Positions 43,123 to 47,071 of a DNA stretch of 63,302 bases are shown piece by piece. Below the pieces are notes generated by a model, which did no database searches, was not told where the DNA came from, and was given only the letters and a program-made list of their open reading frames with translations. Numbering within the stretch: position 1 is the first letter of the stretch; each line of letters starts with the position of its first letter. The stretch is taken from NCBI GenBank assembly GCA_002701845.1, contig NZXG01000042.1:1-63302 (forward strand), given 5' to 3'. The DNA is from Pseudomonadales bacterium (GTDB lineage Bacteria; Pseudomonadota; Gammaproteobacteria; Pseudomonadales; Ketobacteraceae). The position numbers and the translations under genes are program-made.

Positions 43123-45564
43123 TTATGGGTGGGTGTGAGTCAGCCTTGCCGGAGTTTGCGGTGCCGTCAGATGCTGGTCAATTTCCAGCGCGGGTACCGG
43201 CTCGGAGTACAGGTAACCCTGAAACTCATCGCAGCCGGCCTGGCGTAGCAAATCGGCCTGCAGCGCTGCCTCGATGCCTTCAGCCACGGTACGCAACGAC
43301 ATCTGCTGGGCCAGAGCGATAATGGCGTTGGCAATAGCGCGGGAGCCGGTGTCGGTGTGGATGTCAGCCACAAAACTGCGATCAATCTTCAGGGTGTTAA
43401 TGGGCAGGGTTTTCAGTGAACTCAAACAGGAGAAGCCGGTACCAAAGTCATCGATGCTGATATTGAGCCCCATTTTTTTCAGTAGTCGAAGATTGTGAAG
43501 GCCGATTTCACTGTTCTGCAGACAGGACTCCGTCACCTCGATTTCCAGTGCGCTCAACGGCACTTGATGCCGTTGAGCCGTTTGCACCAGCTGGTTGGCA
43601 AAGTGTCGGCTTTCCAGCTGGCGAGCGGACACGTTGATGGCCACCCGGCCGGGATTGAAACCCGCGTCCAGCCAGGCTCGCAGTTGGCGGCACACTTCTT
43701 CAATCACCCATCGCCCGATGCTGATGATCAGGGCGCTGGTCTCCGCAATGGGGACAATATCGCTGGGCCCCAGTAAACCCAATTTCGGATGTTGCCAGCG
43801 AATCAGCGCCTCCAGTCCCACCAGATGCCCGCAGCGGCTGTCATACTGGGGCTGGTAGTAGAGCAGGAATTCGCGATTTTTCAGCCCCTGGCGCAGATCC
43901 TGATCGCGACGGAAGTACTGTGCCACATGTTCGTACATGTCCGCCTGATAGACCATGTAACTGGTTTGGGTATTATTCTTGGCAGCGTACATGGCGGTGT
44001 CCGCCATCTTGATCATTTCATCACGATCCCGGGTGTGGTCGGGGTAGATACAGATACCGATGCTGGCACTGGGCACCAGTTCCACATTACCCAGCGGCAG
44101 CGGTTGGTCCAGCAGACCGGTGAGTTTGGCCGCCAGTTGCTCTAGATCCTGTTGTGAGTTGATGGATTCGGCAATGACGATGAACTCATCCCCGCCGATA
44201 CGACAGAGGGTGTCGGAAAGCCTGAGCTGGGCTTTCAGGCGCTGTGCCACCGCGCTCAGCAGGTTGTCTCCCATTTGATGGCCAAGCGTGTCGTTGACCC
44301 GTTTGAAATGATCCAGATCCAGAAACAACAGGCCGAAGCGGGTGCCCTCCCGCTTGGCCTTGGCCACGCACATGTCCAGACGATCCATAAACAGATTGCG
44401 GTTGGGCAAACCCGTGAGTGTATCGTAATACGCAATATGAGACAGTTTCTGCTGGGCTTCCCGCACGGCGGTAATATCGGAAATCACCACCACGTACTGT
44501 GCCTGTTGACTGTCGGGATCGGGCGTGGCGGCGATATTCACCAGGGCATGAATCCAGGTGTTGGCCGTATTGGGAAAGCTCACTTCCCCCTGCCAACTGC
44601 CGTTCTGCTGCAAAGCCCGCCACAGACTCTGGCTGGTATGATCGCCCAGACTGTCAGCATCCAGCAGTGACAACTCCTGGCCGTAACACTGATCCTGCTC
44701 CTGGCCGGTGATCCGGGAAAATGCCCGGTTGACGCTCCTGACTTTGCGGTCCTGGTCCAGCACCACAATGCCATCAGCGCTGAACCGGAACGCCGTGGCC
44801 GCCTGCCGTAACTGTTCCCGGGCGGCGTGTTGGTCGGTGACATCCTGCAACACGCCGACCACCCGATGGTGACCGGTGTTGCCGTTGAAAGACTTGCCAT
44901 GCAGGGTGAACCAGCGTTGCCCCAGCGAGTCGGAGTGGACACAGAATTCGACACTGATTTCCCGGTCCGCATGTCGGCGCAACTGATCCAGGGCCCGGGT
45001 GACCCGGGCCCGGTCCGGCTCAATAATGGCGCCGGCCAGCTGCTCCCAGTTTTTCAGCCGGGTCAGCTCGCCGGAAGGTGAGTAACCCAGCATCACCGGT
45101 CCACTGGCGGTCTCCATTTCCCAGGTCCCCAGTTGGGCGGCATTCAGTGCCAGCTTAAAATGGGCTTCCCACTTGGCCAGTTGGCGATCGGCCTGATGCC
45201 GCTCCAGTGCCACCTGGATGGCCACGTGCAGCTCACGTTCCGAGAACGGCTTTAACAGGTAGCCATAGGGGCGGGTGACCCGGGCCCGGGCCAGGGTGGA
45301 ATCCTCGGAATAGGCGGTAAGGAAGATAATGGGAATCTGGTGGTATTGGTTGATATAGTCCGCCAGCTCAATACCGTCCCTGTTGCCTTTGATATGGATG
45401 TCCATCAGGATCACATCGGGTTTCCGGTCAGCCATCAGTTGCAGGGCACGGTGGGCGGAGGGGGCGGTACCCACGACCTGGTAGCCTAGCCGGGTCAGGG
45501 TGCGGGACAGGTCCAGCGCAACGATATTTTCGTCTTCTACAATTAATACGTTTTTAACTTCCAT
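43123..45564 (-). CDS. Response regulator with PAS, GGDEF and EAL domains
   Basis: Response regulator whose output is cyclic-di-GMP turnover. From a start at 45564 (MEVKNVLIVEDE, with AGGA upstream; an ATG at 45576 is the alternative) the 813-residue protein has a receiver domain (phospho-acceptor Asp about residue 53 in LMDIHIKGNRDG), two PAS domains, a GGDEF domain with intact GGDEF and an RxxD inhibitory site (RLSD), and an EAL domain with LEALIRWQ and DDFGTGFS. Both cyclase and phosphodiesterase activities are possible. The kinase gene follows 17 bases later. Confidence 0.92.
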   Translation of the reverse strand: MEVKNVLIVEDENIVALDLSRTLTRLGYQVVGTAPSAHRALQLMADRKPDVILMDIHIKGNRDGIELADYINQYHQIPIIFLTAYSEDSTLARARVTRPYGYLLKPFSERELHVAIQVALERHQADRQLAKWEAHFKLALNAAQLGTWEMETASGPVMLGYSPSGELTRLKNWEQLAGAIIEPDRARVTRALDQLRRHADREISVEFCVHSDSLGQRWFTLHGKSFNGNTGHHRVVGVLQDVTDQHAAREQLRQAATAFRFSADGIVVLDQDRKVRSVNRAFSRITGQEQDQCYGQELSLLDADSLGDHTSQSLWRALQQNGSWQGEVSFPNTANTWIHALVNIAATPDPDSQQAQYVVVISDITAVREAQQKLSHIAYYDTLTGLPNRNLFMDRLDMCVAKAKREGTRFGLLFLDLDHFKRVNDTLGHQMGDNLLSAVAQRLKAQLRLSDTLCRIGGDEFIVIAESINSQQDLEQLAAKLTGLLDQPLPLGNVELVPSASIGICIYPDHTRDRDEMIKMADTAMYAAKNNTQTSYMVYQADMYEHVAQYFRRDQDLRQGLKNREFLLYYQPQYDSRCGHLVGLEALIRWQHPKLGLLGPSDIVPIAETSALIISIGRWVIEEVCRQLRAWLDAGFNPGRVAINVSARQLESRHFANQLVQTAQRHQVPLSALEIEVTESCLQNSEIGLHNLRLLKKMGLNISIDDFGTGFSCLSSLKTLPINTLKIDRSFVADIHTDTGSRAIANAIIALAQQMSLRTVAEGIEAALQADLLRQAGCDEFQGYLYSEPVPALEIDQHLTAPQTPARLTHTHP

Positions 45565-45761
45565 GTGCGACTTCATCCTGAAGTTGTGTTCTCGGTCTGC
45601 CAGGGGGCTACCCCGGGCAGGTACTGATGTGCTGATATGGTGTGAGTTCCATGCGGCCTGACGCCCCGGGGGCTGACCAGGTCTTTTCGACATTATGATG
45701 AATATTAGAACAGGTTCACAATTTTAGTTAGATCGATTGCTAATGATAACGGTGTTTAATA

Positions 45762-46436
45762 TCAGCGAACGGCCCAGCCGCCACTGAGGGGAAACACCTG
45801 CCCCACATGACAATCCGCCAGCTTGCTGCAGAGGTAGGCCACCAGCCCGGCATCCTCCTCCGGGGTCACCAATCGCCCCAGGGGCACCTCCCTGTGCAGG
45901 CGGGCCCGGAAGCGCTCATCCTGCTGCACGGAAGCGGGAAAATAGGTGGGGTTGTCGACAAAATTCTGGGCGATGGCATTGACCTGGATATTGTGTCGGG
46001 CCACCTCCACTCCCAGGGCCTGGACGTAAGCCAGCTGGGCGCCCCGGGCGGCGCTGTAGGTGGCGGTGCGTTTCATGCCCCGCAGGGCGGCGGCGCTGCC
46101 GATCACCAGGATTTTGCCGGCCTGACGCTGGATCATGCCGGGCAGAACGGCCTTGCAAAGCCGTGGCAGCGGGTCCACAAGGCGGGTAAAGGTATCCCGC
46201 CATTCCGCCTCGGAGATGTCAGTGGCCGCCGTCACCGGGGCGGGGATGGACAGGTTGACGATCAGAATATCCAGCTCCCCGGCCCCGGTAATCACCCGGG
46301 CGGGTTCAGCGGTGTCCGTCAGGGGCGCGGTGCTGGCAATGACCTCCGCGCCACACTGGCGCAGGTGCTGACAGATGGCCGGCCCCATAAAGGCATCGGC
46401 GTGGGTGACCAGAATGCGTCTGCTGGACAAATCCAT
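45762..46436 (-). CDS. Probable halohydrin dehalogenase (SDR-derived)
   Basis: This would easily be labelled an SDR, but the key residues differ. The SDR cofactor motif TGxxxGxG is replaced by T11-HADA-F16-M-G18, matching T-x4-F-x-G. The catalytic YxxxK is replaced by S114-x12-Y127-x3-R131, matching S-x12-Y-x3-R. These two patterns together define halohydrin dehalogenases, which convert vicinal haloalcohols to epoxides plus halide without NAD(P). NNAG is also lost (VNLSIPA). Later NAIAQNFVDNPTYFP and GQVFPLSGGW fit D/E/G-type members. The 224-residue length is right. It is a single gene, divergent from the DUF2244 gene. Substrate unknown. Confidence 0.82.
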   Translation of the reverse strand: MDLSSRRILVTHADAFMGPAICQHLRQCGAEVIASTAPLTDTAEPARVITGAGELDILIVNLSIPAPVTAATDISEAEWRDTFTRLVDPLPRLCKAVLPGMIQRQAGKILVIGSAAALRGMKRTATYSAARGAQLAYVQALGVEVARHNIQVNAIAQNFVDNPTYFPASVQQDERFRARLHREVPLGRLVTPEEDAGLVAYLCSKLADCHVGQVFPLSGGWAVR

Positions 46437-46501: not shown

Positions 46502-47071
46502 ATGGTATCGCAAAATCAGGCTCGCTACCCATTACCTGAGGCTATCCATTGCCAGAGACGAGGGCTGTTATTGGTCACCTGTCAGCGCCAGGGCGCGGAA
46601 ATTCTCATTACCCTGGAACCCAACCGCTCCGCCACCCGGCGTCAGACCTGGTGGTTTTTGTTGTTGGTGGCCGGGGTGACTTTTTCCGTGGCACTGTTCT
46701 GGGCGCTGTTCGGCGCCTGGGTGGTGTTGCCGTTTGCCGGCCTGGAAATCGCCGTGCTCAGCTATGTGATGCTGCGGGTGTCCCGCGCCACCTATCGGAT
46801 GCAGGTGATCCGTATCCGCGACGATGTGGTGGAAGTGGAGGAGGGGGAATTCTATCCGGTGCGACGCTGGCGCTTTCCGCGACCGGACACCCACGTGAAC
46901 GTGCGGGATGCCACCACTCCGGTGGACCCCATCGATCTGCAACTGCATGACGGCCGACAGTATCTCGCACTGGGTACCTTTCTCAATCAGGCGGATCGGA
47001 TCCAGGCCCGGGATGCGCTGCAGCATGCCGGCCTGATGATTTGCAATGACCGCTGGTGGCGGAGCCGGTGA
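46502..47071 (+). CDS. DUF2244 membrane protein
   Basis: The 189-residue protein has two central membrane helices (WWFLLLVAGVTFSVALFWALFGAWVVLPFAGLEIAVLSY, about residues 50-90, as one hairpin) between two cytosolic parts. LEPNRSA at the front and RVSRATYRMQVIRI..DDVVEVEEG, FPRPDTHVNV later fit DUF2244, which has no known role. It is divergent from the dehalogenase-like gene with 65 bases between, and ends 54 bases before ureG on the same strand. Confidence 0.8.
   Translation: MVSQNQARYPLPEAIHCQRRGLLLVTCQRQGAEILITLEPNRSATRRQTWWFLLLVAGVTFSVALFWALFGAWVVLPFAGLEIAVLSYVMLRVSRATYRMQVIRIRDDVVEVEEGEFYPVRRWRFPRPDTHVNVRDATTPVDPIDLQLHDGRQYLALGTFLNQADRIQARDALQHAGLMICNDRWWRSR

Follow-up and report, generated by a model that had tools for sequence, protein, structure and literature searches.

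One question raised by this locus is whether the gene at positions 45762..46436 (minus strand) of the window, that is, of the whole 63,302-nucleotide stretch of Pseudomonadales bacterium DNA that was analysed, encodes a short-chain dehydrogenase/reductase (SDR) or a halohydrin dehalogenase (HHDH). The open reading frame is intact, starts with ATG and yields a product of 224 aa. On the basis of homology, tree and structural model this product was assigned to the D-type HHDHs, and it is very probable that the gene encodes a cofactor-independent enzyme of this subtype.

The HHDHs have been described by the motifs T-X4-F/Y-X-G, near the N terminus (PMC11976700), and S-X12-Y-X3-R (PMC4989007; PMC11976700), and the classical SDRs by T-G/A-X3-G/A-X-G and S-X10-14-Y-X3-K (PMC11976700; PMC4989007). 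Both HHDH motifs were found in the window protein. Motif 1, T11-x4-F16-x-G18 (46383..46406, minus strand), replaces the SDR glycine motif and would form the nucleophile-pocket loop, and motif 2, S114-x12-Y127-x3-R131 (46044..46097, minus strand), contains the predicted catalytic triad. The preliminary description had pointed to these six residues as HHDH fingerprints and to the loss of both SDR hallmarks; all six are located at those positions in the open reading frame and in the alignment, and neither SDR motif was matched. Its wording of motif 1 holds for the residues present, but the published form takes F or Y and not F alone (PMC11976700). In a 41-row alignment with the window protein as row 1, the columns of T11, G18, S114, Y127 and R131 are invariant and that of F16 is nearly so.

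Seven SDRs encoded in the same genome, taken from its 18 other matches (the remaining 11 being without a locus), were used as control. None of the seven showed either HHDH motif and all of them contained S-x10-14-Y-x3-K. A loose version of SDR motif 1, with the first residue optional, matched five of these seven proteins and also the D-type rows L011, L012 and 8xxb, and is therefore not diagnostic. A genome scan at the loose cut-off of E 1e-3 provided at least 524 relatives among 593 stretches, which may include ordinary SDRs, and conclusions on relatives were hence drawn from the best 80 of these. Both HHDH motifs were present in all of these best 80, with F in motif 1 throughout, and the strict SDR motifs in none of them. 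This indicates that the HHDH motifs of the window gene exceed chance expectation.

Regarding family placement, Pfam returned adh_short_C2 and adh_short alone, both of them broad SDR families, and the 25 NCBIfam models shown, out of 195 matched, all stayed below their cut-offs; this bears out the expectation that the gene would be annotated as an SDR. The top sequence match in the PDB was 7b73 (E 5e-91, residues 3-223), which corresponds to HheD2, a characterised halohydrin dehalogenase (PMC9629495) deposited with the molecule name "Short-chain dehydrogenase/reductase SDR". Further matches were 8xxb (8.6e-80) and HheB (1.9e-50), and FabG-type SDRs appeared from about 1e-21. In a tree of 101 rows, the window gene and the copies from its genus formed a group of seven rows (support 100/99), nested in a D clade of 87 rows (99/99) together with HheD2, 8xxb and the Halopseudomonas pelagia CL-AP6 protein (L091). 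References of types A, B and C lay outside this clade, as did the SDRs of the same genome, and the window protein thus did not group with the Y-x3-K SDRs in a reference set covering types A to D. The bootstrap was unsettled and long branches meet in this tree, the long rows being those of the A, B and C types, the SDRs and other distant rows.

HheD2 is the closest known system. It shares with the window protein both motifs, the length, a missing segment of 29 alignment columns (see below), the fold (TM 0.92) and 62.9% identity, and differs in 37% of the residues and in its gene neighbours; over 221 residues it is identical to the product of a gene from the marine gamma proteobacterium HTCC2207 (L071), which has a GNAT gene upstream. 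The H. pelagia protein is very probably HheD12, the name given in PMC6922532 to the HHDH of strain CL-AP6. It has the same motifs and 62.4% identity; unlike the window gene, its gene is immediately preceded by one for an epoxide hydrolase. HheD8 (8xxb, a triple mutant with chloride) shares motifs and fold and is further off (56.8% in the same alignment, the deposited sequence having three substitutions). HheB (4zd6; 42.7%) has the motifs, with Y for F in motif 1, and the same missing segment, but forms its own separate clade. Identity decreased to 31.8% for a HheC mutant, 31.5% for HheA and 27.4-30.4% for four SDRs of the same genome; classical SDRs such as FabG share the Rossmann fold and the Ser-Tyr pair, but retain Y-x3-K and the segment at the adenosine site.

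A structural model of the monomer was obtained with AlphaFold from 41 sequences (pLDDT 90.5, pTM 0.89), superseding an earlier one from 7 sequences (pLDDT 77.2). In a Foldseek search with this model HheD2 was retrieved first and, together with HheB and the chloride-bound HheD8, filled ranks 1-9; a dehalogenation enzyme came at rank 10, HheC at rank 11 and the first FabG at rank 12. Compared with L004, an SDR of the same genome, the window protein has a gap of 29 alignment columns following residue 44; the codons of E44 and P45 flanking this gap are at 46302..46307 (minus strand). The segment is also absent from HheD2, 8xxb, the H. pelagia protein and HheB, and most of it is retained in the A and C references. 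We take it to be the alpha-B/beta-3 region, which meets the adenosine half of NAD in SDRs. An intact NAD pocket had been named as the observation that would speak against an HHDH; judging from the alignment, the window protein appears to have lost both the adenosine-site segment and the glycine motif. That it is a divergent SDR still binding NAD(P) and acting as an oxidoreductase is extremely unlikely, since the Pfam and NCBIfam assignments to the SDRs and the fold common to SDRs and HHDHs are outweighed by the loss of the glycine motif and of Y-x3-K, the missing adenosine-site segment and the tree placement among HHDHs.

Sequence, tree and predicted structure thus identify the window protein as a subtype D HHDH, and the family proposed in the preliminary description was upheld by motifs, PDB match, tree and model. 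The novelty that it implied was not, because D-type HHDHs are a known type, described in 2014-2016 and characterised and crystallised since, nor are the HHDHs a small enzyme family any longer. The window gene is new as a sequence and not as a kind.

Taking the reaction steps from the family account in PMC4989007, S114 would hold the hydroxyl group of the substrate, and R131 would lower the pKa of Y127, which would take the proton. The resulting alkoxide would displace the adjacent halide, closing the epoxide, and T11, F16 and G18 would line the pocket that houses the halide. In the reverse direction an epoxide would be opened with halide, azide, cyanide or nitrite. Catalysis, halide binding and a tetrameric state are accordingly attributed to the window protein by analogy with the family, whereas motifs, homology, tree position, loss of the adenosine-site segment and an intact frame under purifying selection are directly supported.

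The gene might instead be the decaying relic of a formerly active HHDH, which we regard as very unlikely. This would fit with the genus genome G002, where the same site is found without an HHDH gene, and with the end branch of the window copy, which at 0.42 is the longest in the seven-row clade. Against it, the frame is intact, the motif residues are retained, and dN/dS between the window gene and the genus copies was 0.20, 0.13 and 0.16 in the three measurable pairs out of four (dS was saturated in the fourth), these estimates being rough since the dS values are high.

At 1e-40, matches to the HHDH were detected in 7 of 57 related genomes. Besides the genome of the window itself, these were 4 of the 5 further genomes of its genus, none of the 9 from the rest of the family and 2 of the 42 from the rest of the order. 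In the class sample at least 5 of 369 genomes matched, counting that of the window, where scoring was limited to 8 candidates in each genome. The best 80 of the at least 524 relatives carry mostly beta- and gamma-proteobacterial labels, together with some of Thermodesulfobacteriota, Myxococcota, alphaproteobacteria and Bacteroidota; many of them are MAGs and the labels were taken as given.

The gene neighbourhood was then considered as a guide to the substrate. In the window, the HHDH gene is divergent from a gene for a DUF2244 membrane protein (46502..47071, plus strand; PF10003, E 1.4e-31), as had been described, and is followed by a gene encoding a response regulator-PAS-GGDEF-EAL protein (43123..45693, minus strand); neither showed any sign of a functional link. 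It is also divergent from a CobW/HypB/UreG-family gene, and a histidine kinase gene is located on the HHDH strand after the GGDEF-EAL gene. A PLD-like gene (PF13091) is situated just before the HHDH gene in three of the four other HHDH-bearing genomes of the genus (G001, G004 and G005), overlapping it by 4 bases in one locus (L016); such genes were seen at L016:7306-7995 and L108:845-1645. The window does not contain this gene, nor did a search find it elsewhere in the same genome. In G003 the HHDH gene is divergent from a UreG-family-like gene (named by eye from likeness) with no PLD-like gene beside it, and in G002 the PLD-like gene occupies the same site and the HHDH gene is absent. The PLD-like gene was consequently rejected as a fixed partner of HHDH, and the surroundings of the window gene name no substrate.

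Among the best 80 of the at least 524 relatives, the commonest neighbour cluster comprised 11 loci and no more, all of one clade; the same upstream gene was present in all 11 (GNAT by Pfam where tested, L071) and the same downstream gene in 9 of them (DnaT domain where tested, L041). Neighbourhood was therefore discarded as a substrate guide. The absence of a neighbour is weak evidence here, because the simple gene caller was unreliable in G+C-rich loci (the HHDH gene itself was missed in 14 of 80 and then forced in) and many of the 80 loci are cut by contig ends. In four loci (L032, L063, L076 and L077; Pfam for L077) the HHDH gene adjoins a gene for a methylcrotonyl-CoA carboxylase subunit, and these loci look as if HHDH had been set into a row of leucine-degradation genes. 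In a Desulfatitalea MAG, a formate/nitrite transporter gene (L020:89-901; PF01226, E 2.5e-68) lies directly upstream of HHDH; nitrite is a known HHDH nucleophile (PMC4989007).

Epoxide hydrolases and dehalogenases were also searched for. The preliminary description reported no haloalkane dehalogenase or epoxide hydrolase genes nearby. This was correct within the window, where four epoxide hydrolase queries (two at E up to 1 and two up to 1e-4) detected nothing, but not for the genome, which encodes a haloalkane dehalogenase and an epoxide-hydrolase-like protein elsewhere. The former is on contig C50 (L105:1420-2313); it scores 460 bits with NF002043, whose cut-off is 265, and matches the PDB at E 1.3e-115, and no second one was matched in this genome at 1e-20. 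The latter, on contig C1, has its best PDB match at E 1.5e-28, and related fluoroacetate dehalogenases match it more weakly, so that its assignment as an epoxide hydrolase is tentative. No PF06441 epoxide hydrolase was found in the genome, and of its eight matches to the type II haloacid dehalogenases (TIGR01428) none exceeded the cut-off. Four of the five other genus genomes carry a haloalkane dehalogenase, but they are a different four from those with HHDH (G002 has the dehalogenase without HHDH, and G003 the reverse). The haloalkane dehalogenase was hence rejected as an obligate partner, its presence not tracking that of HHDH in the genus.

Among the 80 relatives (the best of at least 524), the HHDH gene lies directly after an epoxide hydrolase gene in two, L091 and L075, and with the queries used no epoxide hydrolase was detected in most of the 80 loci; two query sets were used, and L036, L038 and L039, where alpha/beta-hydrolase matches were partial and weak, were not scored as having an epoxide hydrolase. 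The hydrolases of L091 and L075 share 79% identity, and that of L091 matches EphA at E 5.9e-80. These EphA-like genes (L091:7012-7992, H. pelagia; L075:1376-2374, a Pseudomonas MAG) would make, together with HHDH, a ready two-step pair from halohydrin to diol. In L019 the gene before HHDH encodes an alpha/beta hydrolase whose type is uncertain. Two plasmid genes served as catabolic controls, one of A type from Microbacterium (HheA match E 1.7e-160) and a more distant one from Novosphingobium, and each has an epoxide hydrolase gene immediately in front of it. The Novosphingobium protein (L096:2989-3666), annotated as an SDR, contains S-x12-Y-x3-R, lacks motif 1 as searched, and is joined to HheB by long branches in the tree. 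According to the account in PMC4989007, only two of the HHDH genes then known had an epoxide hydrolase gene in the same operon.

What the enzyme does in the cell can be stated with less confidence than its family. Halohydrin or epoxide chemistry is the best reading, because of the enzymes encoded in the same genome and the two of 80 loci with an epoxide hydrolase; the protein may plausibly, if tentatively, clear halohydrins or epoxides, perhaps in concert with the haloalkane dehalogenase and the epoxide-hydrolase-like protein encoded elsewhere. It is also possible, with somewhat less conviction, that fold and chemistry are those of an HHDH and the cellular job is not dehalogenation, halide release being a side activity; examples would be the use of nitrite, cyanide or some other anion to open a metabolic epoxide, or a different reaction that needs no cofactor. 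The lack of any fixed partner or neighbour cluster beyond 11 of the best 80 loci is consistent with this, as are the transporter gene directly before HHDH in the Desulfatitalea MAG and the statement in PMC4989007 that physiological functions other than dehalogenation cannot be excluded. The two relatives placed directly after an epoxide hydrolase gene argue in the opposite direction, as do catalytic and pocket residues equal to those of tested enzymes. The question of the native role of HHDHs is not new, since that account of the family already raises other functions.

The window gene is another HHDH concealed under an SDR annotation. D-type HHDHs occur on 80 contigs (the best of at least 524 relatives), mostly of Proteobacteria, with no fixed partner gene, and we tentatively suggest that their native task might be other than clearing man-made halohydrins, acting instead on a natural halohydrin or on a metabolic epoxide opened by an anion, of which the window gene would be one instance.
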